A DNA stretch of 64,000 bases from Eutreptiella sp. 'Long Island Sound 2002'. Lineage: Eukaryota; Euglenozoa; Euglenophyceae; Eutreptiales; Eutreptiaceae. The notes under the pieces were generated by a model that saw nothing but the letters and a program-made list of their open reading frames with translations, was not told where the DNA came from and made no database searches. The translations under genes were made by a program, and so were the position numbers. How positions within the stretch are numbered: the stretch's first letter is position 1; the number at the start of each line of letters is the position of its first letter. The stretch lies in the NCBI GenBank assembly GCA_964036045.1, contig OZ038382.1:86413795-86477794 (forward strand), given 5' to 3'. This document shows, one piece after another, positions 14,071 to 54,989 of this stretch.

Positions 14071-14075
14071 GTATT

Positions 14076-14105
14076 CTTAGCCCACGCAAACTGCACCCCC
14101 TTTTG
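14076..14105 (+). repeat. Left terminal inverted repeat
   Basis: 30 bases beginning CTTAGCCCACGCAAACTGCA; differs from the inverted right end at positions 11, 24 and 25 of the repeat. Preceded directly by the GTATT duplication. Confidence 0.85.
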
Positions 14106-14641
14106 GAAGAGAAGGACCTAAAAAATGACCGCCCAAATAACTATTTTTTTTGGACATTTGCAACACACATGGCCCAGATGCCACCGAAAAAATACAATTT
14201 TACCCAATTTGCTGCTTTTTTCCACTTTTTGCTTATCAAAATAAACTATTATTTTGTCTGATTTGAGGGGTGTGTTTTACCAATCTTGTCGTTTTTGTAT
14301 TTCAAAAGCCAACTGGTGCGTGCCTGTTCGGGAGCTCATTTTCAAAATATGACATTCTGCGGGTCTCCAGTTGCACCTATGTTTGTCCTGCGAAATAAAT
14401 TGCTTTTTTGTGTACCTGAGTGCGCGAGGCCTCGCGCACTCAAGGTCATGGAAACAATTGTGTACAGAGGGCAACAAAAACAGGACACGAAGTGCACAAC
14501 GTACAAACACTGAGATAAAAGCTTGGCAAAAATGTACAACCCTTTAAGGGCATATAATTGCATTCGCGTCGAAGGCGAGTGCGCGAGCCCTCGCGCACTC
14601 ATGACTGCAAAAAGAGGCGTAACACTTGGGGTAATGGTGAC

Positions 14642-17590
14642 TTACTTCTTCTTCGGTCCAGCAACCTTAGCCAACCTGGAACCCAGGCTTCTTGCTGTTG
14701 TACTTGTCCCACTTGGAGAGGCAACGGTACCTCGAGACGGCAGGGTACCAGAACGCGAGGGCGGCTTGAACTCTGCAGTAGCACTGGCAGCAGTCTTCGC
14801 TTTCTTCTTGGACTGTTCCTTACCAGAGTCGGGGCTGCTTGCATCGAAGTGAGAGGCGGATGCCCGCTTGCGCTTCTGCTGGGTCTCCAGTACTTGCTCC
14901 AGATCGTCTTCTTCTGACTCCTCGTCAGTATCGTCGTCGTCTGATTCCGCGGGCTTGTCCGATTCCTTCTCTTTCCCTTTTGCTCGCTTCTTGGTACTCG
15001 AGGGTGTTCCTTTTCCGGCTGCAGTACCCTGAGTTGGTACAACTTTGGCAGTCTTCTTCATCTTGGCTTGCATTGGCAAGGTAGGTGCAGGCGCACCAGG
15101 CTCAGTGTCTTCAGCGGGGGCCTCAGTCACGACATCTTGCTGGACGGCTTCTGCAGCATGCACCTGCTGGTGCCCTTCATGCCCTCGTTTGCTGTCCAAA
15201 ACCCACAGTGGAATGCCACGCTGGAGCCACTCTTCTTGAGTATCCCAAGTTGCAGCTGTTGCTCCCTGCTCCGTCTGATCGGCCTCCAGCATGTACCGCA
15301 TCACGATTGCATGCTGCAGAGCACCTCCAACGGCATTCCCTAGGTCCTTTTGCTTGATCGTTGACACAGCCAGAAACGCCACTTTAGTTTTGAGGTCAGA
15401 CATCGCAATCTTTGCGGCCATGGCAGGCGTGTCGTCCACAACAACCACTGCATCAGGAAGCCCACTGCACAAAACGTATCTGTCCAGGTACCACAGCACG
15501 TGAATCAGAGGCATGAAACCGCCGAGGTTCTTCTCTTGCATCTCTTCGAAATGTCCAGCGGAATACGACACATAGTTCGGCAACTGTAAATGTGATGAAT
15601 ATAGACGAATAACGGAGGCAGCAGTGCGCGAGGCCTCGCGCACACAACGGCATCGTAACAATCGAAAGAAGCAGATATACCTGCTTATCCCAGCGACTCG
15701 TTGTTCCGATCCACATACAGTGCTCGTCGAACTGATACGTACTGCTGGTCACGGGACCCGATAACCAAGAGTACACCGGCAACCGAACATGGTAGAATGG
15801 CACTGTGGTTGGATCCTTGTCCTTCTCCATACGCCAGAGCCTCTGCATTTCGCGGCCAATACGGTGCACAACATCAGCCTCGCCATAGAAAATGACGTCT
15901 TTCCCCAGCATCATCACATCGAACAGCCACTTCGGAACAAATCCTGGAGAGTCGTATTCAATGAAAAGGTCAGCGTTGATGATCCACAACGGGTACTGCA
16001 GATCCCGGAAACGGCCTGGCGGTGTCTCTTCAATATTCTCAATACGGCAGGCTGTCAAAGCGTATTTGATCCCTTGCTCGTCCGACTTGGAGACATTGAT
16101 CACATCGCCATTACTGAGCTGTGTCTGTGAAGGTGCCGATGATGGTGCCTCAACCTTCCTTTGCAGTTGTTTCCGCACGGCCAACGTCTGTGGTAATGGA
16201 GGTGCGCCCTTGTCCCCAGTGCGCCACAGAGGTGCAGTGAGCAACGTCTTCCATTTTGGCCAGGGCGACCGAAACTTCGTACTTTTTGCGTCCACCCAAT
16301 AACCCCAATTTCCAAGCCCAATTTTCAATTGCGGCGTGCTGCGACTTCTGCTCGGATCTTCGCATCGGCAGCTGTACGGATGTGACAAACGTGGTGAAGT
16401 GCGCGAGCCCTCGCGCACTGCAGCTGCGACACTGACGCATACCTGCGGTCTGGTTGACATGCTGCGTATTGTCCGGATGGTCAAGATGGAAAATAACCCA
16501 TTGTTCCGTAATCTGCGCGTCAATGTAGTTCTGGGTGGTCTTCAAGGTCGAGTCCTTCAGGTTCATGTGCGCACAGACTTTCTGCAATAGGCTCGGTAGA
16601 TGCAGCCCCTCCAGCCTCTTGAAGGCATTCCTTGTAACGTCCTCTTTCTTGCTCTTACTCTCGAGGTTCCTCATACCAGTAACCGCCTCACGGCCGCAGT
16701 AATACGCCAGGGAGAAGATGTCCCTCCAATTCTTGAATGTCGAGTCCTGCGGGGGGAGACAGTGTCATGGAGTGCGCGAGGCCTCGCGCACTGTAACCGT
16801 GCGATACACGAATACATACTGTATGTCCTGCTTCCTCCAAAGCCTCGGGTGCAAGAAACGCAGAGTTGACGGCAGCTTGGACAACAGCAATCTTGAACCT
16901 CTCGAAATCTTGTGGCTCTTTTTCCCGCTTCTGATCCTCAATGTACAACAACATGTTGTCCAGCGCCTCGGACAGCGGAATCCACGTCACAGACTGGCTG
17001 CCAGCTTGTTGCAATCCTGCAACCTTGGCACGGATCCTCCAAGGCGTTTCGTACTTCAGAATGTCAACGTAGCAAAACTCCTGCCAATCCTCCAATTCTT
17101 TGCCTTCTTCGAGACGCTGTTGCTGAATCTTTCTGCATGTTTCTGTGCCATGTTGACCATTCAGAACGTAAAGGGAGCCATCTGCAAAGCAAATCATGTA
17201 CCGAAGCAAAAAGAAGAACCGTCTTCGATCGAAAGCGAAGCGAGTCATACCACCATCCTCCCACGCCGTTATGCGCAACGGTCCAGCTGGTGGCAGTGCT
17301 TGGTATCCTGCCACTTTTCTGGCAACGTCGTCATAGTTGATGGATCGGATCTGTCCGCGCTCCTTGGTCTTGTCAATTTTCAAATCAGCAATCTTTACCT
17401 TCACGGCTTTACCATTCTCCTGCCGCAGCCACTGTGCCACTTCGACTGTGAGCTTCATCTCCGGTATTGCTTTCTTCTCACCCTTCTTCTTGCGTCCTTT
17501 CTTCGGCGTGTCCCCGTGGTCGGTCCCTGGTGACGACTCCATGGCCTCTGCGTCTGTTACTGGACGTTCTGGCGACCCTGGTTCACTCAT
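14642..17590 (-). CDS. Four-exon gene: ParB/DGQHR-like protein of the TIR element (gene 1)
   Basis: Exons on the minus strand: 17590-16820, 16746-16443, 16357-15681 and 15583-14642, total 2694 nt, 897 aa plus TAA. The phases close exactly (0, 1, 0), which supports the splice calls. I chose ATG 17590; a TTG four codons earlier has no support. The N-terminus is Pro/Ser/Lys-rich. Near residues 140-160 is DGSLYVLNGQHGTETCRKIQ, resembling the (D)GQHR/ParB-Srx signature in which a protein binds a site and sometimes hydrolyses nucleotide. The middle (exons 2-3) is globular with many Trp. Exon 4 ends in a long disordered acidic-then-basic tail with nuclear-localisation-like runs (KKRAKGKEKE, KRKR). 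It lies downstream of gene 2 in the same orientation, 249 bp away. Role unknown; site recognition or a transposase partner is inferred. Confidence 0.75.
15584..15680 (-). other. Intron 3 of gene 1, carries a palindrome
   Basis: 97 nt, GTATAT...TTACAG, phase 0 (CAG codon to TTG codon). The palindrome at 15624-15643 sits mid-intron. Without splicing the frame reads the palindrome as ARGLAH and the upstream exon frame is lost. Confidence 0.8.
16358..16442 (-). other. Intron 2 of gene 1, carries a palindrome
   Basis: 85 nt, GTATGC...CGAAG. The donor gives phase 1, and only the AG at 16358-16359 keeps the exon-3 frame; the stronger-looking TACAG 14 nt earlier would bring an early stop. The acceptor is therefore inferred from frame. 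Palindrome at 16399-16418. Confidence 0.65.
16747..16819 (-). other. Intron 1 of gene 1, carries a palindrome
   Basis: 73 nt, GTATGT...CCGCAG, phase 0 after codon 257. Palindrome at 16772-16791. The unspliced frame runs on as a 304-residue ORF, so retention would give a truncated protein. Confidence 0.85.
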
Positions 17591-17838
17591 GATGCCAAAC
17601 AATACCTGAAAAGGGCAAATGGCATGACATGAAACACGGTCATTTGAACTCTGAAATCAGTCGAAACGGTATTTTGCAGGTCGTTTTCGGAAATCTGTTC
17701 CACAAACGTCTTTGTTGTGACTTAATCCACGGCACTTAGCGAAGTACTCAGTGCGCGAGGCCTCGCGCACTCACATCGCATTACATACCTGTTTTCATAA
17801 CGTTTAGTGCGCGAGGCCTCGCGCACTGCGGGTGTCAG
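17591..17838 (-). promoter_or_regulatory. Spacer between the two element genes with two palindromes
   Basis: 248 bp. The palindrome 17807-17826 begins 12 nt past the gene 2 stop, the other (17751-17770) is midway, and about 160 nt separate it from the gene 1 ATG. It must hold the 3' end of gene 2 and the promoter of gene 1 unless the two are co-transcribed. CAG/GTATTG just before the gene 1 ATG resembles an acceptor, so a leader intron is possible. Confidence 0.5.
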
Positions 17839-19836
17839 TTACCGCAAGCGTTGCCGCACGTTGCGTGTTGCTGCTTCCTGTCTGTCGGCATCCATATCTG
17901 TTCTCTGTCCCACAACAGCATCCAGTTTCCGTTTCAGTTGGTTGGTGGGATTTGTTTTCTGGTCAATGAGGGCATCTAGTACGCTGTGACCAAGTAGCCG
18001 GTAGTGGTCGTAACCGAGGGGTTGTGTAGGTGAGGGCGGAAATCTCGGTAACCTCCGCGGCCAAGAAGGTGCAACCGTGCTTACTCTGTCCGACTCCCAT
18101 TCCACATAGGCCATGCATATCCGGTCTGTCGCCAAAAATCTGGTCAGTCGTTGTCGCATGCTGTGTACCAGGTTCTTGGGAACGTTTTGCACCCCCACGC
18201 GTTTTCCACCAGGACCAACCTTTAGCAACAAGTAATGGTTTTCCACCTCCTGAACAGTAACAGAACCCGTGTTTCTCGCCTTGTCCCGCACCAGCTTGCT
18301 CAACATCCCTTCTCCAAACTCCTCTGAGTGTGCCTGACCGGGCAGGTCCTGGTGCCACTTGCTGTTGTACAACAATGTGCACATGATTGTGCGCTCGTAC
18401 TTCAGTATGGTGTCACACGGTCCTCGACGCAGCCTCCGCAACAGACACAAACTCAACTGCAACACCTCCTGAGCTCGTGTCCCTGTAGCGTTGTTTTCCC
18501 CCGACCAATTGCACTCCCGTACCAGGTGACCCAAGTACAACAACAACGGGCACCAATCCGACAACAAATGCAAGACTGCGTTTGCCACTGCTGCCCTGTT
18601 GGCATGCGTAGTGTCACGACCACTGATCGCGGTTGCAGCTTGTGCCTTGCGCCGATACGGGCGTAGTATTCGGGGTGTGGCAAGCATCAGCGCAGCAATA
18701 GTTTTTTCCATAACTATCAGTTTGGGGTATGATAGTATGGTGGAACCAGGTCGTAGCAGACCTTTCCGTAGGTAGGTTAGAATAGGCCAGAACACCCGAA
18801 AAGTATGAGTAACAACGAACTTGTAGGCATGCCAGACACCGTAAACTACAGGCACGTAACGCAGGTATGCACGCATGTTCCATCGTTGGTTCTTGGCACC
18901 GTACAACAACTTTAGTACCCTGTAGTGTATGTTTTCGTCAACCAACAGCGGTAGAACTCTGTTTGTCTGTTGTGCTACGTCCCTTGCAAAGTGTAACAAG
19001 TTTAACAGACCAACACCACAAGTTACCTTCTCTTTGGACAGGGCAAACGGGCGCCACACCGGTGCCTGTACAGTCCTTGCATCCCTCCTCACATCCAACG
19101 GCGCTCTCACGTTTCCAGCGTCTGGTGTACACCCATCTGCATACCCCATGTCACGCAATGTCTGGTGGATTCTCCGTTCACGCTGTTGCAGAGCCCTTGC
19201 GACTGTCGTTATCCGTGCTGCCAGTTCCTCAATGGCTGGATGTCCTGCCCAATACGTGGGTCTCTGTTTCAGTTGAAGTACTGCCATTGCAGTACAGTTT
19301 TGCGACCGGTCACTTTCGTCTGCGTGTGTCGTGTATTGTGCCCGGTACCAGTTGTCTATCCACAGCACGCAACACGACGAAAGCACCAGTGACCAAGTTG
19401 CTTTAAGTGCTGCTGCTGCCTGTTCGTCCACTGTGTCTGCGGCAGCGTCTGCTTGCCCAAGTCGTACTTTTGTTCGTCTTTCTGTTTGCGTCAGGTACCC
19501 TGTTGTGTTTCCCGGTTTTTTCCTGTTTGGTACTGCCCGTTGACGCATCAACAGGTACAGGTTCCAGCCCTCCTGTTGCAAAATGCGCACCCAGCGCTTG
19601 TCCTCCTGTCGTTTAGCTGCTGGTAAACTGTGGCGCGTTCTTTTGTTGAACCTGAGTCGCTGTGCAAATGTTAACACCAGTTGCGCCGCCAGGTCGTTCC
19701 GTTTCAGTCCTTTCCATAGGTCACCTGCTGTTTGGTATGCTTGTTCTGCCGCGCATGCCTCTCGTAGTGCTGCTGCTCCTTTGCTTACTTCTGCAATCAT
19801 GCGTTGCTCTACGGATTTTCTGGCTCGAAGTGGCAT
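17839..19836 (-). CDS. 665-aa protein of the TIR element (gene 2), unknown family
   Basis: A single-exon frame from ATG 19836 to TAA 17839. The protein is basic, Leu/Arg-rich and globular. Notable features: an N-terminal helical Ala/Gln-rich region; WRPFALSKEKVTCGVGLLNL followed by LPLLVDENIHYRVLKLLYG (about residues 300-345); a conserved-looking YVPVVYGVWHAYKFVVTHTF segment; a Cys/Leu-rich stretch (LSLCLLRRLRRG); and a C-terminal PLGYDHYRLLGHSVLDALI with a basic tail. The DEN..H cluster and downstream acidic residues could be a catalytic core of an unrecognised transposase, but I cannot assign a DDE triad. It is the first gene in transcription order, nearest the right TIR. Confidence 0.75.
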   Translation of the reverse strand: MPLRARKSVEQRMIAEVSKGAAALREACAAEQAYQTAGDLWKGLKRNDLAAQLVLTFAQRLRFNKRTRHSLPAAKRQEDKRWVRILQQEGWNLYLLMRQRAVPNRKKPGNTTGYLTQTERRTKVRLGQADAAADTVDEQAAAALKATWSLVLSSCCVLWIDNWYRAQYTTHADESDRSQNCTAMAVLQLKQRPTYWAGHPAIEELAARITTVARALQQRERRIHQTLRDMGYADGCTPDAGNVRAPLDVRRDARTVQAPVWRPFALSKEKVTCGVGLLNLLHFARDVAQQTNRVLPLLVDENIHYRVLKLLYGAKNQRWNMRAYLRYVPVVYGVWHAYKFVVTHTFRVFWPILTYLRKGLLRPGSTILSYPKLIVMEKTIAALMLATPRILRPYRRKAQAATAISGRDTTHANRAAVANAVLHLLSDWCPLLLYLGHLVRECNWSGENNATGTRAQEVLQLSLCLLRRLRRGPCDTILKYERTIMCTLLYNSKWHQDLPGQAHSEEFGEGMLSKLVRDKARNTGSVTVQEVENHYLLLKVGPGGKRVGVQNVPKNLVHSMRQRLTRFLATDRICMAYVEWESDRVSTVAPSWPRRLPRFPPSPTQPLGYDHYRLLGHSVLDALIDQKTNPTNQLKRKLDAVVGQRTDMDADRQEAATRNVRQRLR

Positions 19837-20898
19837 TTTGCGTCTTTCTCTGTGGAATTATATTTGCGCACATATGTTGGTTATCGTTTCGCACAGCGAC
19901 CTTTAAAAAAAATGTATTAGAAAACATCTGGCCTTTTCCTGTCGTCATTCTGGTGCGTGTGCTGTCGCCGCAAATTGGATTTGGTGTCTGCGTGCGCTCC
20001 GTTCCCAGTAACCGCAAACTGTTTTCGCAACCACAATTTCCTGTTCTGCGTCCGTCTTTAAACCCAGTTGGAAAAAAAAACCATGTCTATCGGTCAACGA
20101 AGGCTACGCCGCTATTAAAACCGGACACGTCTACCATCGAGTGGCTGTTGGAAAAAAGCAAATCATTCCCCTGATCCCCTGAAAAATATGACGAAGGTTA
20201 CCGATGTATAATCGACTGTCACAGGTGGTAGACGTGAAGGGGAATGTAAATACCGGCGTAGCCTAGCTTGATCGCTTTTTCATTTTCTTCTGTCATTTAA
20301 GTGCGCGAGGCCTCGCGCACTGATTGGTTCCGGGGAAACAATGTTCTATACCGTGTTGAATCTGATCAACATGGTGTCTACACACATATACACCGGAAAA
20401 ATCAAACGTGTTTGTCCGTCTCGTACTGTACCTGCAATTGTACGCGTCACATCCAGTCTGAAAATTCAATACATAACGTGACCTGAGTGCGCGAGGCCTC
20501 GCGCACTCAGGTTGCTTAAATTTGTATTTTATTTTCACTTTACAGTACATGTGTTTCCCCTAACATGGGAAGTCCGACAGCCATACACTTCCAATGCTCC
20601 CTGGTCAACACAATCCTAATTTTAATACCGTGTGGGAGCTGCGTATTTCCGCAAAAGCCAGTCCTTACGGGTTGTTACGTTTCGTGATAAACTCTGCTTT
20701 CGCTATCTTGAGTGCGCGAGGCCTCGCGCACTCAGAACGCCAGAGAAATGTAAAAAACGTCACATTGAGGAACACGGAGTTGCACAACACGAAAAAAGCA
20801 ATTTATTTCACTACGTCTAAAATCACGTTCATGAAACATCCAAAAAAATAGTTTTTTTGCCCTGTTGCGAACCGGTCCTTTTTTGCGCGTTCGGCGCG
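19837..20898 (-). promoter_or_regulatory. Upstream region of gene 2 with three palindromes and subterminal hairpin
   Basis: Contains palindromes at 20301-20320, 20481-20512 and 20709-20734, spaced about 180-220 bp. At 20881-20903 TTTTGCGCG and CGCGCAAAA form a 9-bp stem with a TTCGG loop, just inside the right TIR. The region must hold the gene 2 promoter. No ORF in it is convincing. Three binding-site-like palindromes upstream of the first gene fit autoregulation, which is inference. Confidence 0.45.
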
Positions 20899-20928
20899 CA
20901 AAACAGGGTGCAGTTTGTGTGGGCTAAG
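20899..20928 (-). repeat. Right terminal inverted repeat
   Basis: Inverse of the left end (27/30), ending ...GTGTGGGCTAAG at 20928 and followed directly by GTATT (20929-20933). Confidence 0.85.
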
Positions 20929-20933
20929 GTATT

Positions 20934-25049: not shown

Positions 25050-27128
25050 TTAGTTTCGCTTTTTACGCTAGGACATAGTCTCAGCACGGGTTAGTAGCTG
25101 CCCCTCGTTGTTATCAACGAGGTAGGAGCGGAAGATGGGTTCGATACTCCCATCTGGTTGTATGAAGGCTGACATAGGTTCCCAGGTCGCCTCAGATAAC
25201 CCATAGCCATACCACAGGGTTAGGAATTTCGAGCCCTGTTTTTACTTGTGGCGAGCAATACCTGCAACCACGTAGTAACCATCGACTGCCATCTCATCGG
25301 CAGTCATCTCTTCGAGTTCGTCTGCCTCCTCTGGACTGGCAGCTTTCTCCAGGTCTATACGCCCGACCTCACTGTCGCTGAGGCGCCACTCATTCCAAGA
25401 CAAGTTGTCAGGGGAGTGATAGTGCCTGAACTGTTTAGGTGCACACAGCAGTTCACCACCTAGGCGTGGACTGCACCTGACATGGATCCTGGATCCATCT
25501 ATCCTGATGATACAATAGGGTCCAAAATAAGGGTCCTGTAGGCAGTTACGTGGCCAGGAGGGTAGGCGTGAATGGTGAACCAAAACAAGGTCACCAACCT
25601 TGAAGCTGGCAGGTCGCCGTAGGCGGTTCCGTCAGCTCAGTTCGCGGTCACAAATGTGTCACAGGTTAGTCCCAGCCTGGTTAGCCAGAGACTGCTTGTG
25701 TTCCAGCGAATCTCCCACAGCGCTCTTGAAGTCCTCAGGAAAGGGGGTTTTGAAGAACCATGCCAGTCACCCTCCATGGAACAGTTCGTGGGGGGTGAAA
25801 TCCGTAGTGGAGCTCCGCTGTGAGTTCATGGTCAGCACTGCCCAGGGCACTAGGCGTACCCAGTCCTTGGTACGCTCCTGTTTCATCAGGATTCTTAAGT
25901 TTTGCTCCACCACACGGTTCTGTCTCTCACAGAGAGGGTTAGACGTGTGGGTATAGGGCACACGTGTGGTTACCTCCACGTTGAGGGCACTTAGCACTCG
26001 TTTGTACCACCGAGTGTCACTGCGGATGCGTACATCCTCATCAGAGTGCACCTGCTTAGGTGCTCCATAGGGTTCGAACCACTGTTCGACCAACATTTTC
26101 ACAGTCTGCTCACCTGTGATTTTCTTATTGCAAGGGAACACACGGGTGAAGCGAGATAGGCCACAGGTGACCACTAGGCAACTATCATAGCCGCCGAAGC
26201 GTGGTAGGCCGTGGATGAAATCCACGTAGAGAAGAGAGTTAGCACAATAGGGTATCGGTAAGCTGGAAATCAGGCCCCTATCCCTACTGTCGCTCTGCTT
26301 GCTGGCATGACAGCCACAAGCATCCACAATGGTCTGCATACACGACCTCAGTTCAGTCAGGGTTAGACTAGAGTAGAAACACTCACGGAAGAAGTCCACC
26401 GAGCGATTAGCGCCAGTGTGACCACAACTGAGATGGGACCACTGTAGGCACCCGTCCAGTCATGCCTCAGGCGCCACAATTCGGTCCTCGTAGAATAGGT
26501 ACTGATTGTTTTTATACCACCGGTGCCCGTCAATGACACGGGGTTCGAGATCAGTGCTGAGGGTTCGGAGAACTTCTTTATACTCTGACTGATAGTCGGT
26601 TAGACTCCAACCCTCCAGGATTCCAGCAGTGCGCATGGACAGGTCAAGCTGGACATCCATACTCTCGAAAGCCTCTCTGGCGAGCGCCTCAGAGCTCTCA
26701 CCTATAAGCGCATCGAAGTTGTTGCGCGATATATAGTCAGACAGTTCATTCTTCATTCCGGGGATATGATGAACTGTCAGCCTGAACTGGCTCAGGTAAG
26801 TCTACCACCGCTTTAGCTTTGCTTTCTCTGGTGGTGGGCCCTTCTGAAAAGACTTCACAGGTTCCTGGTTACACAGCCAGACAATAGGGTTAGATCCCAG
26901 GAGTCGGGACTGTGACGAAAGCACCAACGTACCGGCCAAGAGTTCCTGGTCATAGGTGCTGTAATTGGAACGCGCTTGGTTCCATTTCCAATTCCAGTGT
27001 CCCAGTGGCACCAGCTGCCACTCACTGGTAGGATAGTCATGTTCCAACGAACCATCACGGTTCAGTCCACTAGTACGATAATGGCAGTGGGTTAGTTCAG
27101 CGGGGTTAAGCTCCTGCCGTTGGTAGAT
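25050..27128 (-). pseudogene. pol: RNase H, integrase and chromodomain remnant
   Basis: One broken frame. RNase H continues after the frameshift (YSTYDQELLAGTLVLSSQSR). A TAG at 26802 interrupts before TYLSQFRLTVHHIPG. The integrase zinc-binding part (HLSCGHTGANRS ... ACGCHASK) follows a TGA at 26460. The integrase core has DFIHGLPRFGGYDSC (first Asp), QVHSDEDVRI (second Asp) and CERQNRVVEQNLR (Glu). Further stops fall near 25767, 25650, 25620 and 25242. A divergent chromodomain (KFLTLWYGYGLSEATWEP) lies near 25130-25240, and the frame closes at a TAA at 25050. Many stops are TGA, as expected from CGA to TGA decay, an inference. Confidence 0.8.
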
Positions 27129-29854
27129 CGTACCCCCCCCCCCCCTACATCACTGGCATCAGTGATCAGGACTATCTCGCCCTTAGGGCGGGGTACTCCC
27201 AGGCAGTTGGAGGAGGCAATTTTCTTCTTCAACTCCTGGAAACACTCTTCCTCTCTGGCGGTCCACCTCCAGGGAGTATTTTTCTTGATTAGGTCAGTGA
27301 GGGGGGCAGAGGAGTAAGTAAAATTGTGGATATGACGCCAATAGAAATTACAGGCGCCCACAAAACTCCTCACGTCGTGTAGACCCTTCTTAGGGTCATC
27401 GCGAATCTGCATGTCCTGTGGGGGCTGCATCGTAGACGCGGCTGGTTTCCACCAACCATACCCCACGTCGAAACCCAAATATTCAATCTCCTCTTTCATA
27501 AACTTACATTTTTCGAGTTTGATTCGGAGATTGTTTTCTTGACAAACAATGAAAAATTTACGGAGGAGAAGGACATGGTCCTCTTGGGTATTAATACTCC
27601 AACTCACGTTGTCGATGTGGGCCTCCATTTCTGCACCCCGAGAAATCAACTCCTGTACTAGAGGCCTGCGCCTCAGTATGTACAAAATCTTGTTCATTAG
27701 CTCTTGGAAGTACGCTGGGGCATTAGCCACCCCGAAAGGCATAACCTTCCACTTAAAGACCCGGCTTTTAGGGGTTATAAAAGCCAGCAGCTCCTGAGCT
27801 GCGGCGGTTAGGTCCACCTGCCAGAAACCAGAGCGTTTGTCCATTTTGGTCTTGTACCTGCATTTGGCAATACGCTCCAGGGTATTTTCCATGTTAGGAA
27901 TACTCCCTGAGTGGTTCTGGGTTTTCTTGTTGACCTCACCATAGTCAACAACCGGTCGTAGGGCAGTCGACCCTGGTTTGGCAACCAGGAAACGGGGACT
28001 GCAGTGATGGGGGTAGTCCCCCTCCTTATATTCTTCAACGAGGCCAGCATCAATACATTCCTGGATCTGGCCCTCGATTTCTTTAACCTGTTCCTGTGGA
28101 GCGGGATAGGGATGACACCTCACTCGCGTCTTTTCAAATTCAGGTTTCAGTTTCAGGTCCATCTGGACCAGTTTGTTACAAGAGAGGGGGGGCGGCAAGG
28201 CGCCGAATACCTCCTCATAGGTTATCAGCAGTTTCTTCAGTCGGGGGTCAAGGTTAAGACTCTCAAGTTTCTGCAGGAAATCCTCCTCAACATGGTGGTT
28301 GCTCTTTCCATGTTCTTTCTTTTTCTGCCAATCAGCAGTTTCGGCAGGCACAGAACGATCGACCCATTCAGGGGAACATTGCTGCCCATAGTGCAGAGAA
28401 TACACTAGCGGTATCTCAGGATCAGGCAGCGTATAGGAATCATTGTCCTCCTCAGACCAGATGGAGGATTTCCAGGTCTGTCTGAGGTATTGCAGCCGCT
28501 CTTGGCGCTCAATACCTTCGGCCTTCAGGTACAACAGCCGCCGGAGTTCCTGAGTGTCATGCTCAGACAATGGCATGTTATTAGAAGCAGGCCGCGCCAG
28601 AGCATCAGCAATCCGGGCCACAGGTTCACCTGTGTGCATAGGCTGCATGTGTAGCACTGGCTTCCCAACAGGGGAAGATGGCTCAGAGGTTGACTCTAGA
28701 TCTACCTGCTGCAGCAACAGCTGGGCTACGAAGGCACTGTGTTTTAGGTCAACACAGCTGGGATCAACAGGAGGAATAGTGCTGGCGATCTCAGACATTT
28801 GGTCATCAGCATGCTCCTTTACAGCTGCAGGTTCCAGATAGCCATCGGGAGACTCACACCCTGTAAATGTGGCAGATAGGTGCTCAGGAGATCGATTTTT
28901 GAGATCAGAAAGGGTCAGGCCACGATTTTCGGCCATGACCTCTTTCAGTAGCACCTGGTCTAGGTCACACAGGGGTACAGGATTGAGAGATCCATAAATG
29001 ATGGACGGGAAACTGGCCCACTCAGGGGCCTGCATAGCTGTGTCTGAGTCCTCAGGCACATAGATGGGGCTGTCAGGGAGTTGCACTCTTCCCACGGTCA
29101 TTCGATCTAGCATACGGCGCCAGTAAGCATGTTCACCAGAGCAGCCCACGTCAGGGGTGCACATGACAGCCCTTCCTCCCTCATAAGCGATATTGGTTAG
29201 AACGTTCGCGAGCAGGGAGAAGGGAGGGTTAGCATAAGCTAGGCCCATTGCTTTCCAAAAGAAACGGAAAGCATTGTGCAATTGTTTCAAGCAGTACAAC
29301 TGCATGATGTGCTGTTGTTGGCTCGCAAACAATTCCACCTGAATCTCATCCAGGTTTACTCGAAGGGCCGCCAGTCCATTTTCAGGAACGTGACGGGCCA
29401 ATTGGTAGTTTTCAACACGAGAGTTAGTCTTTGATGCGTAGCGCAGCCCAGACTCTTTTCGTCCTGACAGCTCGAAAGGTACGGGGAACAGCCCACTGCC
29501 AAAGTCGCAGTGCAAAGAATAGGGGCGCTGGAGAGACAGCATTTTTTCCTTGGGGTTTCTTCGTAGGAAGTTTGTACCAATGACGATGTCAAAGGCGTCG
29601 GTGTCCAGCACTCTGCAGTGTTGGGTCACGGTTTCGTCGCCCAGGCATATAGTCACATCGACCCCCCCCAAGGAATGGATGGTACACCCATCCCCTACTC
29701 TTATGGCCATGGTCTCAGCTTTCTTGAAAGTCCTTAGCAGGCGCCGGGCCACTATGGAAAGTGTTGCACCGGTGTCAAGCACCGCTTGAAGAACTTGATC
29801 CCCGATTTTCACGAGGGTCCAGAAAACCAAGTCCTCCTCTTCGGAGTCGCCCCC
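27092..29854 (-). pseudogene. pol: pol: protease, Dam-like domain, reverse transcriptase
   Basis: Open from the codon after the gag TAG (29855-29857) to 27092. The protease has VLDTGATLSIVARRLL (D-T-G-A active site) and IVIGTNFL. A segment with AYANPPFSLLANVLTNI then EGGRAVMCTPDVG resembles the phage/Dam N6-adenine methyltransferase fold found in some retroelements; its other conserved half is poorly visible. RT motifs: CSPRFLVAKP, KMDKRSGFWQVDLT, MPFGVANAPAYFQELM, then EAHIDNVSW where the second catalytic Asp of the usual I/V-D-D is Asn (plus-strand GTTGTC near 27608). RNase H begins LITDASDVGGGG and the frame is lost in the C-run at 27129-27138. No initiation codon: pol is expected as a gag fusion. 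Confidence 0.85.
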
Positions 29855-37744: not shown

Positions 37745-38277
37745 TGTAAGTGCGGCTAACCCCCATCTGCTCAGATTTTCACAGATCTGCCCCAGATTGA
37801 CTACATTTTGGTCATTTTCTCTGCTTCGGCGGAATCGCCGCCTCGCAGCTCAGTCTCAGGATCAGACCTATATATTTCTGATATGCCGGAATCGATTCCG
37901 CGGTCCATTCATCGTAAATGCGTCGCGTTCCGATCATTTACCTGGAATCGCCAATTGCCGCTGATGCGCGCCCGAAGCCAAATCAGCCAAATATTTTTTC
38001 ACAATCGGACTTATATAAATCTTTTCAGACAGATATGGACACTCAGATGTACTTAGGATAATCCGCATCAATTTTCTTCATAGACTGGGATTTTCTGCCG
38101 GATAACAATCAGCATGGATCTTGCTTCCGTTGTTGCTGCTCTCGCCTCCGTTGGTGTCCGCGTATCCGGTTCTACCCCCAACAGCAGCGTTCAGGTCGAC
38201 TCCTCGCGTGCCTGCCCCACTGGTCTTGCCGGCTCTGAGCCCTCCGGCACCATCAACGACCCAGGGCAGCACTTTCA
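37745..38277 (+). repeat. 5' LTR, 533 bp
   Basis: Begins TGTAAGTGCGGCTAACCCCC and ends GGCAGCACTTTCA. TATA-like elements lie at 37869-37877 (TATATATTT) and 38012-38018 (TATATAA). The second is about 100 bp ahead of the first gag ATG (38114), which lies inside the LTR. Confidence 0.95.
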
Positions 38278-41146
38278 TGGTAGCAGAGGCTACCTGAATG
38301 TTGCTTCAGTGGTCTCTGCTCCACAGCCCGCTCCCCAGTACGGCCCCGTAGACCCCGCCGCTCCTGGAGAAGTAACGATTACGCTGCCATGGTGCTGCGC
38401 GAACGAGGCCTTGAGAGGAATGCCTTGGGCAAGTCCAAGCTGCCCAAGAAGGGCACACATCAGCAGCTGTGGAGACCCAGATTACCAAAATCCTAGTCGA
38501 AACTGGCCATCGAGCAGCTGGAATCCGCCAGCCTACGACGATGGCAACGCTCCGGTGGACCTTACGGAGCTGGCAGGTACCAACATTCCTTACCAATGTC
38601 CGACATTTGAGACCACGGACGCCGATCTTGACGACATTGAGATGGGCGGTCCAGGTGAGGTACCTAGCTATAATCGACCAGCCTCTTGGGCACAATGGGA
38701 CGACCATTTGTCCCTAGAAGTGACCCGTAACCTTGAGAGCCTTGAGGTCCTTTGTCTCTTGGCCACGTCTAAGCTGATCGAACAAGAAAGAATCGCCTCT
38801 GATTTTTTAACGGAATATTTTTTCCTCCTTCAGGACGAAATTAATACCAGGATGTGGTGGCGTTCTCAAGAAGCTGACACTTTTGCCATTTTTTTGCAGA
38901 TCTGGGAGGCAAGCCCCTTCCCGAAGGAGAAGGGCACAGCACCTGTTCCCGGGCCCTCCGCCCCTCATCCCCCTGTTCCCATCCGCGACGATCTAGCCGC
39001 TGCAGTTGAGGAGGGAATTTTAGAGGCGGCCAGGCAGGCAAGCCTGGAAATCAGGGCTGAAGGAGCTCCCCAAGTGGACTCCTGCCTGCGGACCACCGAG
39101 ATCAGCGGTCCGACAGCCTGCTCAGGCCCTTCAGGACACGGTATGTACTGTCCTGCCGACTGCTCCTGCAGATTCCAGCGAGATGCTGAGCTCCAATTGC
39201 TCAAAGATCAAATGAGCCTCATCATTCAAACGCTGGGAATTAAAGATCTTTTCAAGACGCACATGCGGTCTGAGGGCGCCTCATCGGTGGAACAAGCGAC
39301 AGAGCCTTCGGAGGAGGCGACAGAAATTTTTTCAATTGCTCCTTCGGTGGACTCCAGGACCACTGATCCAAGGATCAGCAGGACCAAGCTAAAGGAAAGG
39401 GTTAAGATCTCTCGTTCTGAGAGTAGGACGGCGAAGGCTAGGACTGAGGCTCAGAATGCCAAGCGAACTGCCTCCCGTATTGCCCCTCCTGCTGCTGATT
39501 CCAATACCTTAGCCCAGCTGTTGCTCGCCCAGACCCTCGCCGGAGCTGGTGTGGCGAATGATGCCGCCAAGGTGTCTGCCATTACGGCTGGTGTTGGGCT
39601 GGATTCGCTTCTCAATCCTACTTCCTTGCGACTTCGTCAGGTTGCCAAGCAACCGAAGTATAATGGGAACCCCCGACGTTGGCCTCAGTTCCAACGGGAA
39701 TTTAAACTGTGGGTTAAGACTCAAAAACTCCAAGATGATCAGTTCCTGATGGCCCTCTTGGATTGCCTTGAGGGAGCGCCGGCCAACACTTGGCTCAGGA
39801 CTTGGAGTGATCGCGAGGATACAAGTTCCCCCCTTACCTTTGATGAGGTGTGGGAACAGTTGGAGGTACGTGGATCCCGGCTGCCAGAGGATCATTACCA
39901 CCAAATGTTGAAGAATTTTCCTTCATTCTCGCGATTAATTTTGCACGAAGTGCAAGACAAAAGACAGCGCTTCTGGAATTTAGTGGAAGAAGCTGAACAT
40001 TCAGGCGAAAAATTTTCTAGTGCCGAGCTGAAAAATCTGATTTTTGACAAGATCCCCTCAGAAACTGCCGCCACCCTTCGGAACAAACAGTCCGAAGAAA
40101 AGGTCAAGACCTGGTGGGCGGAGGTGGAAGGCTTCGATGCCTCTGCCAACAGGTTCTCCGTCAGGGAGGCACTTCAAAAGTGCTCCCCCACGTCCTTCAC
40201 CAAGGTGAAATTCACTGAGGAGACGTGGAAAATCAAGTTTAATGAACACGAGGATCGGGACTTGTTTGTCCAAGTCCTCAATAGGGGAGTAGGCTTCCAT
40301 GGCCATCGCCTGGAGGCCAAAAACTGGGTGTTTTCGTACACCCCGAAGGAACTCTGGGAGGAGGTTGAGCGGCTCGCCGACGCCGCCAATCAGAATTTCC
40401 ATGAGGGTCTTGGGGGAAACAAGAATACCCAGCAAAACACCCAAAATGGGGCCCAAAAGGGCAACAAAAAGGTGAATGACACCCGGAATGTTCAGGATCA
40501 CTGTAGCATCTGCCTTCTTTTAGGTTCTACGAACCGAGCTAAGACGCATTCTACTGGTAATCACCGATGGTCTCCTTACGATCACAAGGTGATTGGTGAA
40601 AATATCAGTAATCCGCAGAATTCAGACAGGAATGACAGACAGGTGCATGGTGGGAAGGCTGGAAAAGGGAATCCGACCCCCTCCGGTGGGAACAAAAATC
40701 CTGGAGGCCCTGGCGGGTCCCAAGGCACAGGAAATCAGACTCCATCCGGCTCCGGTGGGCAGCCGAACGGCCAGAAAAATCCCAATAGCAACGCCGGAGG
40801 CGGAAATCGAAATCCAGGCCAAACCCCTCAATCCGGTGCAAACAAGGGAAATGCTCCAGGATTCCAGGGTAAAGGTAAGGGAAATCCTTCGGGAACCCCT
40901 TTCTCTGGTAAGGGCAGAGGGCGTGGCGACGGTGGAGGTCCATCATCCGGCGGCCATGGCCGTGGACGTGGAAAGGGCAACCATCGTGTGGATCAGGTCT
41001 CAGGTGCAGATCAGGTGTCCGATGCGGATCGAGATTACGTTGAAAATGCCTTGAATCCAGCAGATGATCCGCTCCAAGATGAGTGGGTCGACGAATCAGG
41101 GTGTGTCCACAATGTTAACGCAGCCACTGGAGGTCAGAACGCCTAG
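38114..41146 (+). CDS. gag: Gag polyprotein of the Ty3/gypsy element
   Basis: 1010 residues from ATG 38114 inside the 5' LTR, through the PBS, to TAG 41144. A later start such as the ATG near 38641 is possible, because the first ~170 codons are Ser/Pro-rich and less conserved-looking. Residues about 460-620 form the capsid-like core (PKYNGNPRRWPQFQREFKLW, LLDCLEGAPANTWLRTW, the typical retrotransposon Gag pattern). A Cys/His cluster (CSICLLLGSTNRAKTHSTGNH) may be a zinc finger, though not a CCHC knuckle. The last ~160 residues are Gly/Asn/Lys/Arg-rich with RGRG repeats, suited to RNA binding. The reading frame runs on past the stop into pol. Confidence 0.85.
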   Translation: MDLASVVAALASVGVRVSGSTPNSSVQVDSSRACPTGLAGSEPSGTINDPGQHFHGSRGYLNVASVVSAPQPAPQYGPVDPAAPGEVTITLPWCCANEALRGMPWASPSCPRRAHISSCGDPDYQNPSRNWPSSSWNPPAYDDGNAPVDLTELAGTNIPYQCPTFETTDADLDDIEMGGPGEVPSYNRPASWAQWDDHLSLEVTRNLESLEVLCLLATSKLIEQERIASDFLTEYFFLLQDEINTRMWWRSQEADTFAIFLQIWEASPFPKEKGTAPVPGPSAPHPPVPIRDDLAAAVEEGILEAARQASLEIRAEGAPQVDSCLRTTEISGPTACSGPSGHGMYCPADCSCRFQRDAELQLLKDQMSLIIQTLGIKDLFKTHMRSEGASSVEQATEPSEEATEIFSIAPSVDSRTTDPRISRTKLKERVKISRSESRTAKARTEAQNAKRTASRIAPPAADSNTLAQLLLAQTLAGAGVANDAAKVSAITAGVGLDSLLNPTSLRLRQVAKQPKYNGNPRRWPQFQREFKLWVKTQKLQDDQFLMALLDCLEGAPANTWLRTWSDREDTSSPLTFDEVWEQLEVRGSRLPEDHYHQMLKNFPSFSRLILHEVQDKRQRFWNLVEEAEHSGEKFSSAELKNLIFDKIPSETAATLRNKQSEEKVKTWWAEVEGFDASANRFSVREALQKCSPTSFTKVKFTEETWKIKFNEHEDRDLFVQVLNRGVGFHGHRLEAKNWVFSYTPKELWEEVERLADAANQNFHEGLGGNKNTQQNTQNGAQKGNKKVNDTRNVQDHCSICLLLGSTNRAKTHSTGNHRWSPYDHKVIGENISNPQNSDRNDRQVHGGKAGKGNPTPSGGNKNPGGPGGSQGTGNQTPSGSGGQPNGQKNPNSNAGGGNRNPGQTPQSGANKGNAPGFQGKGKGNPSGTPFSGKGRGRGDGGGPSSGGHGRGRGKGNHRVDQVSGADQVSDADRDYVENALNPADDPLQDEWVDESGCVHNVNAATGGQNA
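38278..38289 (+). promoter_or_regulatory. Primer-binding site TGGTAGCAGAGG
   Basis: Directly follows the LTR CA. Complementary to a tRNA 3' end CCTCTGCTACCA, consistent with initiator Met tRNA. It is translated as part of gag if the LTR ATG is used. Confidence 0.85.
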
Positions 41147-44100
41147 GGGAGCCACCAAAATCGCCCCTCCCCAGGCGAATTCAGGCATGATCCCCAGATT
41201 CCTTCGCGACCACTACTTGATGTAGGGTCGCTTGTCTCCTCTCCCCTGGATTTGGCAGCGGATCCTTCTGTTGTAGTGGACGAGGTTGGTGTACAGTCCA
41301 AGCACAGGGCCCGTCAGTTTGTCACAAAGATGTGGGTCTCTGATCGCAAGGGCAATTTCCACCTCGCCACTTGTTTGTGTGACAATGGATCGGAGGTAAA
41401 TCTCCAATCCAATTCCTTTTTGCCTGACGACTGCGTGTTTGATTCGCCTCTTCCTGTTACCCTCGAGGGAGTTTCTGGACATTCTCTCGCAGGTGGGCAA
41501 CGCGGTTGTTATATATCAGCTCATTTGGTCGCTCAAGACCTTTGGGAAGAAGGTAATGTGGAGGAAGTTATCCTTAAGGATGACTACTTCTATCGTGCCG
41601 ACATAAAGTATGACCTTTACTTGGGCCATCCTTGGCTTCGCAAGAACAGGGTGGCGCCCGTAGGTCATCGGCGTTGTTTTCTGCTGGAGTCAGGTCCCTT
41701 GGAGCGTCCTGAATTTCGTTTTTTGCACGCAGGATTTAAAAGTGCAGAAGAATTTTTGAAGCAAAAGGTTACACCAAAGTTTGGCGAAGATGTCACCATT
41801 GCAGAGGTGAATGGGAGTGCCGATTACTCCCGAGAGTTAGAATGTCTTCGTAGGGACTCCCAGCCACGACGCCCTTCGCGCTGGCACTCTTCATCCTACA
41901 GAGTTGTCGACAAATGGCGCGATACAATTTGTGAATATTTTTATGAACACCATTCCTTTTGGCCACAGTATGATGTTTTTGCTAACCGCGAGAACAAGCG
42001 CTTTGACAAGCACTTTTGCGACGCTTCGACCCATAAATGGGACAAGAAGTTATGGATTAATCCTCCGTTTCAATTAATCCAGCAGGTCATCCACAAAATC
42101 AAGCAAGATAAAACCCAGGCGATTTTAGTTGTGCACTTGTGGGACGACAAGCCTTGGTTTCAGGAATTGCAAGACATTTGTGTAGATTACATCGAACTTC
42201 CCAGGAAGATTAAGCTGTATGCCAGGGACGACACAGGTCCCCTGCCACAGCGGCCCTGGAGTTCGCTTGCATTCCTGGTGGATGGAAAGCTTTCTGACTC
42301 TGATTCTGCTGATTCTAGTACTGATTCCTGTGTTGGGTCTGAATCTGAGGTTGAGCGTGGTACTGATGATGAATCTATTCTTTCTGATTTTTGTCCGTCA
42401 GATGCCCAAGGTGATCCAACGTCAAATGGATCCGCCTCGTCTCCCTCTTCCCCAATACGATCGACATCGAAAAGAATCTTCAGTGCACGGGCGAAGAAAA
42501 ATTTTAAACCGCGCCGCAAATTCAGAGTTTTTTATGAAAAACCCCGTGTGGAAGCTTTCATAGATCCTTTCGAGGAGCTGGATCACGAAGAGAATCTCTG
42601 GAATGTCGACACTCGACCCACCTATCTTCAAGAGGCAGTTGATACGGACCTTTTTAGAGACATCCGTAAGAAGATTCTTCCTGCCAAGGCCGAAGAAGTC
42701 GCCAAAGTTTTTTCGACAGTAATTCCTGGCGATCAGGTGGACACTGAATTGTGTTCCAAGAAAAGAGACAAGATTTTTGAGGAACGGAAGGACACAACCC
42801 TTTCGGGGAAGTTGATCAAAGACCCCCCTGTCCGTGGGCAGTTTGGTGAAGCCTTCATCGAGCTTCGTGAAGGCTACAAGGCGAAGAAACAGCGTCCTTA
42901 TGAGAACCATGGACACAAACATGAGATACTCAGAAAAATAATCGAGAGAAATCTCAGGGAATTTGGTTGGCTTGAGGGTTGTATGACCAGCGAATGGTGC
43001 TGTGCACCCTTCACAGTCCCGAAGCCGCCGCCTGCAGACCAGAACACTATTGATGGTTGGCGAATGGTTATTGATTTTCGCAACCTCAACGCCGAAACCA
43101 ATGCGGATTCACACCCCCTGCCCCTCATTGAGGAGGAAATCGCTAACAGGGCAAGAGGTCGTTTGTTTTCTTTGCTGGATCTCCGTCACGGCTTTCACCA
43201 AATGCCGTTCAGGAAGGACAGCCGACCTCTCACCTGTATGTGCACGCCATGTGGCTCAGTCCAGTGGACGGTCATGCCCATGGGCCTGAAGAACGCCCCT
43301 TCGTTTTTTCAAAGAATGATGGAGGATGTGCTTTTTACAGCTCATCCTGAGCTTCGTGCCTTCGTGAGTGTGTACATAGATGACATAATCATCGCGACAG
43401 AGGGGGAGGGACTGACCGAAGCCGAGCTGGTGGCCCTACATGAAAAGCAGCTGAACCAGGTTTTGGACATTCTTGATGCCAATCAGCTGATTTGTGGGCC
43501 AAAGAAGGGAAAATTATTTTTAAAATCAGTTGAATTTTGTGGTTCTCTCCTTGAGAATGGCACCCGACGACCCAGTCCAGGGAAGCTCGTCGCTATTCAG
43601 AAGTGGAAGCGCCCTGAGACGATCACGGAATTGAGAGGATTCCTGGGTTGTTGCAATTTTTACCACACTTTTGTGCCGAATTATGCCAAATTTGCTGCCC
43701 CCCTCACTGAATTATTGAAGGTAGGGAGAGATGCGGGCAAGGCAGGTTCAAAGGTTCGTGTCAAGTGGACTGACGAGTGCGAGGAGGCCTTCCATCACTT
43801 GAAGGCGGCCCTCTGCGAAGTCGCCACGTTGCATGTGCCGAAATTCGACCGACCCTTCTACATAAGAACCGACGCTTCTAGGTACGCGATCGGAGCTGTC
43901 CTTGAACAGGTTGATGAAGCCACCGGCGATCATTACCCTCTTGCATTTTGGTCTCGGAAGCTAGCCTCACGCCAAATGCAATGGTCGCCGCGTGAGCAAG
44001 AAACCTACGCCATAATCTGTGCTTTGAAAAAGTACCAATCGTGGGTTGGCACCAATCGAGTCGAGGTCCTGACGGATCATCGATCTCTGGAGTATTGGGC

Positions 44101-54100: not shown

Positions 54101-54940
54101 GACGACAGCCCCGCCGCACTGCCATGGCCAACAGATCCCCCGGAGACCGTGCGCAAGCTCGCCGACATCATACGCAGCCACGCGAAAGCGAAAATGCAAA
54201 CACCGGCAGAACCCCCACTGAGGGATCCAGACCAGCAAGCAACGCACCCCTTCTTCAAACCCCAGGCCCCCCCAGCCCCGCTACCTCCAGTCCCACCCAA
54301 GCGAACGAGACGACAAAGGGGCGCACCCGCCCCCAGCCAAGCCGGAAAAGCAGCGACCTCCCGACCCCCCGCATCCCACCCGACCCACCCGGCGAACCCA
54401 GACCAAGCATCCTCGTCATCCTCCCTCCCACCAATACCACCGCCCCACCCGGACCAAGCATCCTCGTCATCCTCCCTCCCACCACTACCACCGCCCCACC
54501 CGGACCAGGCATCCTCATCATCCTCCCTCCCGCCACCAGCACAGCCCCCGCCCAAAGCGTACCCAGGATTCGAAAAAGGTGCGAAGGTCCAACAGCCCTT
54601 CCGCAACGACCACACAGGCGACTGGATCTGGTGTGAGGGCACGATCCGGTATCGCCTCAAGGAACCGGGGGACAACGGGGGGCCACAGATCCGGGTGATC
54701 TGGCACCGCCAAAAGAAGCTAGACCAAGGCAGCAGCGCCCCGGACAGACCAGTCGGCTACACCCTGGAGCTCACCAGCACCCACCCCATCCGGCTCCGCA
54801 CCGAAGAGAACAAGGCCCACACAGGCACCAAATACACTGGGGAGCTCCCCCCGGAGTGGAGCCACGGCCTCCCCCCGCCGCGCCTACCCAAACGCCCACA
54901 AACCGGCAAAAAGTCCCCGAGCCCCTCTCCCCCTCCCTGA
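51152..54940 (+). CDS. LINE ORF1, 1262 aa, with a cupin-like segment
   Basis: ATG 51152 to TGA 54938. The frame is open a little upstream (KDIYATLASTLAP), so the start is not certain. N-terminus acidic and Gln/Glu-rich. Residues about 235-305 read like a cupin beta-barrel (HHLLLTLQGDASITPTEGDP, HAVHIPPQA, WQAIVITYP). A Cys cluster CEQHDPPCSTPC lies near residue 690. Residues about 1080-1130 are three 17-residue PDQASSSSSLPP repeats. The C-terminus has an SH3/Tudor-like segment (FEKGAKVQQPFRNDHTGDWI, IRVIWHRQ). At over three times usual ORF1 length, and with no RRM or CCHC knuckle seen, it is an unusual ORF1. Its job is presumably RNA binding for the element; the domain calls are inference. 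Confidence 0.75.
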   Translation: MDAEQYYQSVQRDLPEDHATLQGWKQEKRNDNEWGTEEDLLWEDTWKGTADAFQEAAAETYPRSPGDTRHGLHALLAFHSWKHRHTVTLHPLDHNRHRWTPEDDATAAITVQQSAENPEEYHITWNDPAPHPPASPTLPDVFATISAELQEAKAPQQLDEEMPQAPSPSTTQDQPRTEPLTHLITTMELPPQHRTTPDRNGFRDLPREWAVHNGTLRWDEITPGLQAIRLHSITEPTTNWALPTDRHHLLLTLQGDASITPTEGDPVTAAPAHAVHIPPQASSAPMTVHPGPTPWQAIVITYPAPNDHTHTWQQRWEDIRGDLLQEHLGLTRTHHTLHPIRGVGQAPHGIHAPGVWAYATPINPQAAEDIKTALSIQQAQTQTPHRNIQRGYTIWLAYQDHDTLTPQPGAPPLDTNTTALLQAATAAATQVGAPETWSPQYLVETKVAPHAKGQDKPPTPKPLHPPLKLDPTEHTPQDKWATHYIIPHTTTRKNDAAKITVTRHLTHTTQVYELTAPNVLVTRHRHDERYTIQAEGAAATTLYTWATRGYLPHPTLHHAPSWPTPFHTADRPNKKPKHTGVHTPTQEARHRHDARRKARALHDDHTISRIGAPPARVSDTTHNRRITGITTDCLNPAASRADAVWISEGRSHTRAVARLHNIQPDKLQRAVGPFAVHVTPYGIDHPRCEQHDPPCSTPCTSPLRQPLPAPTITGNMYLGTVPGDPGIYILPNRSREHAIPLHGVESLALGPPPPKHQHQHIPGDKRTQAPDRGKKAHQRALAHITVHPAVQLPKDFGTERHIVLEGQAHHIITAALYTLAAHERHWDPTAIPAMPPPPQGPKNPVTPFHIDQLLSRKAPPHLHPSRIPLAITSWDTLDTPPQQPTIHILKADAQWWVLHWAHGVLMAAKAYTPQIDAEDPPRGQQRLLQATTLTGREGAPWEALHTALYWAQGSPNGPDTPEPTEAWVMQAKAMRNYHLHHLFDDSPAALPWPTDPPETVRKLADIIRSHAKAKMQTPAEPPLRDPDQQATHPFFKPQAPPAPLPPVPPKRTRRQRGAPAPSQAGKAATSRPPASHPTHPANPDQASSSSSLPPIPPPHPDQASSSSSLPPLPPPHPDQASSSSSLPPPAQPPPKAYPGFEKGAKVQQPFRNDHTGDWIWCEGTIRYRLKEPGDNGGPQIRVIWHRQKKLDQGSSAPDRPVGYTLELTSTHPIRLRTEENKAHTGTKYTGELPPEWSHGLPPPRLPKRPQTGKKSPSPSPPP
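54390..54545 (+). repeat. 51-bp tandem repeat inside ORF1
   Basis: Three in-frame units each coding PDQASSSSSLPP plus a proline spacer; GACCAAGCATCCTCGTCATC or a close variant starts each unit. The length is a multiple of three and the frame is kept. Confidence 0.9.
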
Positions 54941-54989
54941 CGGGGCAAGGGCCGAGGGCACAAGCCTCCACAGCCCCGGCCCGCCCCCA

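Follow-up and report, generated by a model that had tools for sequence, protein, structure and literature searches.

Transib and RAG transposons make 5-bp target site duplications (TSDs) and have CAC-type termini. The duplications of other eukaryotic DNA transposons differ in length from group to group. In the part of PMC3706591 drawn on here, P elements are described as making 8-bp duplications, and Dada elements, which insert into small RNA genes and include a U1 family without terminal inverted repeats (TIRs), as making 6–7-bp duplications. As reported in part of PMC12730594, hAT families with 5-bp duplications (hAT5) exist, Zisupton makes 8-bp and Plavaka 2–3-bp duplications, and the KDZ and Plavaka elements of fungi carry an accessory DNA-related protein (TET/JBP) beside the transposase. 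Here we describe a 6853-bp mobile element from the euglenophyte alga Eutreptiella sp. 'Long Island Sound 2002', found in a 64,000-nucleotide stretch of contig OZ038382.1 (assembly GCA_964036045.1, positions 86,413,795 to 86,477,794 of the forward strand; henceforth the window). The element has defined ends, 5-bp TSDs, two genes (A and B) that are conserved between families, and an array of internal palindromes. We consider it likely that the element is autonomous, moves by cut and paste and belongs to a superfamily of DNA transposons not yet described, in which protein B, a DDE transposase that combines an RNase H-like core with an insertion made up entirely of helices, forms a deep, separate branch of the hAT/P/MuDR-IS256/Kolobok/Dada assemblage, protein A is a co-mobilised accessory factor, and the palindromes are probable sites for one of the element's own proteins.

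The borders of the window copy are as follows, with no strand assigned to the first three.

14076..20928: whole transposon copy, 6853 bp, from its TIRs, its TSD and alignment to 10 other full-length copies
14071..14075: left 5-bp TSD, GTATT, from the sequence
20929..20933: right 5-bp TSD, GTATT, from the sequence
14076..14105, + strand: left TIR, starting CTTAGCCCACGCAAACTGCACCC, from self-comparison and a count of the end pattern in the genome
20899..20928, − strand: right TIR, with one private change relative to other copies, from self-comparison and copy alignment

The two TIRs match at 27 of 30 positions and GTATT flanks both ends perfectly, just as an earlier note on this DNA had described; alignment against the other copies places a single private change near the right end of the window copy. 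The inverted repeat of copy L009 is perfect over 23 bp.

The host assembly comprises 2.28 Gb in 2205 contigs, in which the end pattern CTTAGNCCACGCAAACTGC has 1968 exact matches (982 + 986) and its reversed control none. Using the first 325 bp of the element as query, we obtained 777 candidates, of which the best 40 were scored and proved identical over the full 325 bp; 20 stretches taken from these best-scoring 40 make up our copy sample. Ten of the sampled copies are full length (6846–6860 bp) and share 99.5–99.8% identity with that of the window, another seven have internal deletions (703, 1393, 1742, 2813, 2890, 5674 and 6023 bp), and three (L017, L020, L021) lack the right end within the stretch. 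An exact 5-bp duplication is present in all 17 copies that have both ends, and the 18 duplicated words, that of the window copy included, are all different and unrelated. According to the deletion coordinates, none of the seven derivatives retains both genes whole, and the junctions read for L018, L023, L025 and L028 have 0–2 bp of overlap or 3 bp of filler. Dispersed copies therefore share TIRs, are flanked by site-specific words of fixed length, and include internally deleted forms with the same ends, as expected for class II cut-and-paste elements. The element is a DNA transposon with short derivatives of its own and has been active recently. The search for further copies that the earlier note proposed has thus supported its reading as a DNA transposon that carries two genes and makes 5-bp duplications, has shown it to be present in many copies, and excludes the contingency, raised in the same note, that no second copy with matching ends and duplications would be found.

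The first 100 ends listed include 33 pairs that face each other, of which 24 belong to the main type and nine to the CTTAGGCC type, and leave 34 ends unpaired. Eleven of the 24 main-type pairs span 1.16–1.21 kb, 11 span 6.55–6.86 kb and two lie between; eight of the CTTAGGCC-type pairs span 6.57–6.98 kb and one spans 3.2 kb. In the listed part of contig C1, the eleven main-type pairs at 1.16–1.21 kb form one size class, likely a single amplified non-autonomous derivative. A young 1393-bp derivative (L023 and L029) was also seen to adjoin a decayed sister copy of 82% identity, the palindromes of which are altered.

The gene predicted to encode the transposase occupies the right half of the element.

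17839..19836, − strand: gene B, predicted DDE transposase of 665 aa in a single exon, from its open frame, copies, alignment and a structure model

Its frame is intact in all 11 full-length copies examined, the window copy included. Since the 67 genome matches that were scored (the best of 8515 candidates) are all open and shown as 100% identical, the element is probably still active. We sought more distant relatives through the motif YGxWHxYK with the histidine codon CAC, which bypasses near-identical copies in that the main family uses CAT; this search gave 1636 genome matches against one for the control. Eighteen of the 34 loci fetched were aligned with the window protein (alignment A2), and the other 16, which had short broken frames, were left out. 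Identity to the window protein is 24–46% in 17 rows and 90% in one. The motif columns, H336 included, are invariant by construction; outside them, among rows with a letter, D300 is conserved in 17/17, D161 in 11/12, E377 in 19/19, and E505 and E506 each in 13/14. D161, D300 and E505/E506 are the candidate catalytic residues, with H336 inside YGxWHxYK. The ratio of nonsynonymous to synonymous substitution rates (dN/dS) is 0.11–0.20 when the main family is compared with L029 and L055, two copies of a subfamily, indicating selection on protein B during their divergence. Pairs within three other families give 0.3–0.6, as would be expected for partly decaying copies.

AlphaFold modelled protein B with a predicted local distance difference test score (pLDDT) of 36 from the single sequence and of 71 with the 19-row alignment. 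The nine top rows of structural matches to this model are all P-element, Hermes or ISCth4 transposases, but Foldseek gave no significance. On the strength of the model, the most likely identity of protein B is that of a DDE transposase whose RNase H-like core carries an insertion consisting only of helices; an RNase H-like fold is among those that the earlier note suggested looking for. The same note had found no transposase motif it could name in either protein; this holds to the extent that neither protein significantly matches a catalogued family, but protein B can now be given a most likely identity.

Sequence searches with protein B returned little. Pfam, NCBIfam and PHROGs gave no matches or weak ones at chance level, and comparison of the model with viral structure models gave nothing significant. 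Pfam models of transposases were without a match at E ≤ 10 in all 13 aligned B members, which excludes none of these models, as HMMER filters drop most weak matches; the hAT dimerisation domain and BED finger likewise had no Pfam match in these members at that threshold, distant homology being possible all the same. Transib/RAG, Kolobok, Dada and KDZ are absent from the list of structural matches, an absence that excludes none of them. No relative was found in IMG/VR with protein B, exon 1 of gene A or alignment A1 as query, nor in GTDB prokaryote contigs with alignment A2. Assignment of protein B to DUF6589, suggested by a likeness of motifs, was not supported: hmmscan of the protein gave no such match, and PF20231 had no matches in this genome and 14 control genomes, which does not by itself show absence.

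Gene A lies to the left of gene B, on the same strand.

14642..17590, − strand: gene A, five exons (17590-17251, 17181-16820, 16746-16443, 16371-15681, 15583-14642), predicted splice model
17182..17250, − strand: intron 1, probable, 69 nt, in frame, GTATG...TTTGCAG, without palindrome, read by eye
16747..16819, − strand: intron 2, 73 nt, one palindrome, from the frames of copies
16372..16442, − strand: intron 3, 71 nt, one palindrome, from the frames of copies
15584..15680, − strand: intron 4, 97 nt, one palindrome, from the frames of copies

With three GT-AG introns (73, 71 and 97 nt), gene A is open over 904 codons in eight of the ten other full-length copies; in the remaining pair, the L024 frame ends at codon 572, and that of L012 was not read correctly. 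The fourth, in-frame intron at 17182-17250 is likely, because this stretch is unconserved between families and its flanks are conserved, and because it contains a stop codon in family f57. Intact gene A encodes 881 aa with this intron removed and has 904 codons with it kept. The window copy had been taken for an apparently intact element with two uninterrupted genes whose spliced frames close exactly. Its gene A is in fact broken, because it lacks 7 bp near 16335 that are present in all ten other full-length copies, and with the splice sites of intact copies it stops after 373 codons. The frame closes only with an alternative acceptor, GCGAAG, that happens to restore it, which is probably what the earlier reading reflects. 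Our own first splice model (897 codons) used that acceptor and was dropped when the other copies revealed the deletion.

Across five families the invariant residues of protein A are, in order, D, GQxR, PP, W, G, GxH, W, R and G. Searches of Pfam, NCBIfam and PHROGs gave no significant match, the best hits being CDC45, which aligns with the acidic tail (E 0.005; 15.5 bits, where the cut-off is 34), and clostripain (E 0.05, in one of five sequences). In our interpretation, the motifs GQxR, PP and GxH follow the order of box I and box II of ParB; box II reads GQHG, GQHS, GQHG, GQHI and GAHI in the five families and does not conform to GxxR. The relevant profile scores (PHROG ParB, E 0.41 in one of five sequences; sulfiredoxin, E 1.6) are not significant, and comparison with SopB of the F plasmid gave no match (0.2%, against 0.1% for the control SopA). 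The proposal of a ParB/DGQHR-like protein thus stands at the level of motifs and is not carried by profile matches. The ParB-CTPase fold has been reported from eukaryotes too (PMC12704722), and a text search of that paper for 'transpos' gave no occurrence.

The third component of the element is a 22-bp palindrome, AGTGCGCGAGGCCTCGCGCACT, located as follows by window search (no strand assigned).

14419..14440: palindrome 1 of 10
14578..14599: palindrome 2, one mismatch
15623..15644: palindrome 3, one mismatch, gene A intron 4
16398..16419: palindrome 4, one mismatch, gene A intron 3
16771..16792: palindrome 5, gene A intron 2
17750..17771: palindrome 6, A-B gap
17806..17827: palindrome 7, A-B gap
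20300..20321: palindrome 8, past the gene B start on the side of the right end
20486..20507: palindrome 9
20711..20732: palindrome 10, roughly 215 bp away from the right end, found as well in six of seven deletion derivatives

Seven of the ten copies are perfect and three have one mismatch, and none lies elsewhere in the 64-kb window; counted on both strands there are 20 matches, where 0.09 are expected by chance. All ten are non-coding: two lie past the stop of gene A, one each in introns 2, 3 and 4, two between the genes and three beyond the start of gene B. Under random, independent placement, the probability that all ten would avoid the 68% of the element that is coding is about 1e-5. At least one palindrome lies near each end in six of the seven deletion derivatives; the 703-bp copy has two, and L015 has none in its right part. 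The palindromes are most likely binding sites of an element-encoded protein, which we predict to be protein A more probably than protein B; what points to protein A is only its co-occurrence with the arrays.

This co-occurrence extends beyond the main family, as illustrated by family f57.

6977 bp (L064+L057+L066): f57 element, TIR CTTAGGCCACGCAAACTGCCCACC with one mismatch in the left copy, TSD AAGAA on both sides

The f57 protein B is 24% identical to that of the window, and a relative of gene A lies downstream of it; the 5-bp duplication of f57 comes from this one copy. Its palindrome, GTGCTGGnnCCAGCAC, occurs 13 times inside the element at ≤3 mismatches and not at all in 3.6 kb of flanks, with a mean of 0.3 in 200 shuffles. 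Counted with at most one asymmetric pair and without a chance control, the partial stretches available for three further families contain six palindromes of TTGCGCGAGGCCTCGCGCAA type (f30, whose protein B is 46% identical to the window's), 13 of GCTGGGCTCTGCAGAGCCCAGC type (f45) and seven of TTTGGGCACTGCAGTGCCCAAA type (f60), and each has a gene A relative on the same side of gene B. In each of the five families examined, gene A is thus accompanied by an array of palindromes, and comparison of the five indicates that the layout of the element and the symmetry of the palindrome persist while the palindrome sequence varies by family. The exceptions to non-coding placement are one f60 copy and one weak f57 copy, both inside the B frame. 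The partial stretches of f30, f45 and f60 showed no element ends, and no CTTAG end was found in 1.3 kb of additional sequence upstream of f45. At L071:307-975 (+), with L045 of this same family, we observed a 222-codon open frame upstream of gene B, and f45 may carry a third gene or adjoin another element.

We propose that protein B would bind the ends, cut at the CTTAG...CTAAG termini and join them to target strands 5 bp apart, with repair leaving the duplication. The palindromes would be sites, repeated along the DNA of the element itself, that protein A or B recognises, and the protein bound there, more likely A than B, may mark element DNA for assembly of the complex or for regulation. That the binder is instead the transposase, with the palindromes acting as subterminal repeats and protein A doing something else, for instance defending against silencing or choosing targets, is a real possibility, if not one we would bet on: transposase-bound subterminal repeats are common in hAT and P elements, and palindromes are still present close to each end in six of the seven deletion derivatives, none of which keeps both genes whole. 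However, the palindromes are not confined to the ends, occurring along the whole element, in three of the four gene A introns and in the A-B gap, and arrays accompany gene A in every family examined. A more specific idea, that the element represents a new eukaryotic superfamily with its own parS-like array and a ParB-like clamp protein A that loads at family-specific palindromes, spreads, marks element DNA and so delivers the ends to protein B (or confers immunity to self-insertion), each family's protein A and palindromes evolving together like a lock and its key, is speculative and on balance doubtful. We regard it as distinctly unlikely that the palindromes, instead of being protein sites, function at the RNA level or through DNA structure, such as hairpins or cruciforms in intron splicing. 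Perfect or near-perfect symmetry over 20–22 bp, the location of three copies in short introns, and symmetry that is kept when sequence differs between families would all suit such a role; against it, palindromes also occur near both ends and in the gap between the genes, and a role in structure alone would not require one sequence to recur throughout an element, yet the ten copies hardly differ from one another.

Turning to the classification itself, 'undescribed' means here that nothing matching was found in Pfam, NCBIfam, PHROGs, PDB sequences, IMG/VR, GTDB prokaryote contigs or the literature (mostly at the level of abstracts), the eukaryotic sequence searched being this genome alone. This scope, the main gap, weighs against our classification, as do the lack of significance in Foldseek and the failure of protein B to show C/DxxH after the second D: it has G333-x-W335-H336, with the histidine 36 residues past D300. 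That the element is instead a diverged offshoot of some catalogued superfamily, such as a hAT5 element or a relative of P, Kolobok or Dada that has drifted beyond the reach of Pfam, seems unlikely to us, even though the structural matches of protein B to P element, Hermes (hAT) and ISCth4 transposases lie close together and hAT5 provides a precedent for 5-bp duplications. Replacement of C/DxxH by GxWH in protein B and the lack of any transposase Pfam match among the 13 aligned members, inconclusive as that is, argue the other way, and to our knowledge CTTAG..CTAAG termini and a long companion gene are not features of hAT, P, Kolobok or Dada elements. Because sequence models do not match and C/DxxH is absent, we have not filed the element in any catalogued superfamily; the clear match to one that the earlier note allowed for did not appear in the sources searched. 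It is very improbable that protein A is the recombinase or nuclease and protein B the accessory protein: A is the longer of the two and the fold prediction covers only B, but it is B that has the spaced D...D...E pattern, the RNase H-like topology in its model and the structural matches to transposases, and library scans gave no transposase match for A.

Elsewhere in the window, two long terminal repeat (LTR) retrotransposon-like polyproteins with Pfam-supported reverse transcriptase and RNase H lie at 27092-29854 (−) and 41147-45640 (+). The latter also has a marginal integrase match, and a 1020-codon frame beside it (38084-41146) has no Pfam match. The frame at 54723-56342 (+) is of endonuclease/exonuclease/phosphatase type (PF03372, E 4e-5, just below the Pfam cut-off) and is perhaps part of an element resembling long interspersed nuclear elements (LINEs), in a strongly C-rich, A-skewed stretch. 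The stretch at 58800-61400 is strongly strand-skewed and consists of repeats that translate, in several frames, as SQEWRG / ARSGG. Light-harvesting polyproteins with repeated domains occur in euglenids or dinoflagellates, and in the host genome we observed light-harvesting domains (PF00504) repeated in single open frames of up to 6122 codons, for example at C5:109275285-109282430 and C23:19070551-19075362.

If our classification is correct, this is an undescribed superfamily of eukaryotic DNA transposons, probably still active and present in great numbers in its host (a single codon variant of the transposase motif accounts for 1636 sites), that links a transposase of the P/hAT/IS256 type to 5-bp duplications and an unusual two-part design in which the internal palindromes vary by family and their layout is constant. 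Comparison of families offers a direct route to which protein recognises the palindromes, and the finding would aid annotation of repeat-rich algal genomes.

Among known systems, the element resembles Transib and RAG (ProtoRAG) in making 5-bp duplications and differs from them in having no Pfam match and in its termini, CTTAGCCCAC and CTTAGGCCAC, which are not of the CAC type, in agreement with the earlier note's remark on Transib ends. Like ParB-CTPase systems with parS, it combines the gene A motif order with arrays of palindromic sites; unlike them, it has no significant profile match for protein A, no GxxR in box II and no ParA partner that we could see. An accessory gene beside the transposase is shared with KDZ and Plavaka, which are likewise eukaryotic, but the accessory protein is unrelated, the duplications are 5 bp long and no KDZ or Plavaka Pfam model matches. 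IS481EU, whose duplications are given as 4, 15 or 25 bp in part of PMC10045372, was considered for those duplications and set aside. Within the grouping of IS256/MuDR and Dada, the 18 unrelated duplicated words and the TIR that is perfect over 23 bp in L009 distinguish the element from Dada. The structural matches listed for the model of protein B include hAT transposases (Hermes; PDB 4d1q and others); the protein has no dimerisation-domain or BED match in Pfam, carries GxWH in place of C/DxxH and belongs to an element with CTTAG termini, all in contrast to hAT elements, hAT5 included. The list also includes the Drosophila P-element transposase (PDB 6p5a, 6pe2); from the P element, the present one departs in its duplications (5 bp in 18 of 18, against about 8 bp), in the lack of a Pfam sequence match and in its second conserved gene. 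With these distinctions, the element most likely works like a DDE transposon of the P/hAT/IS256 type.

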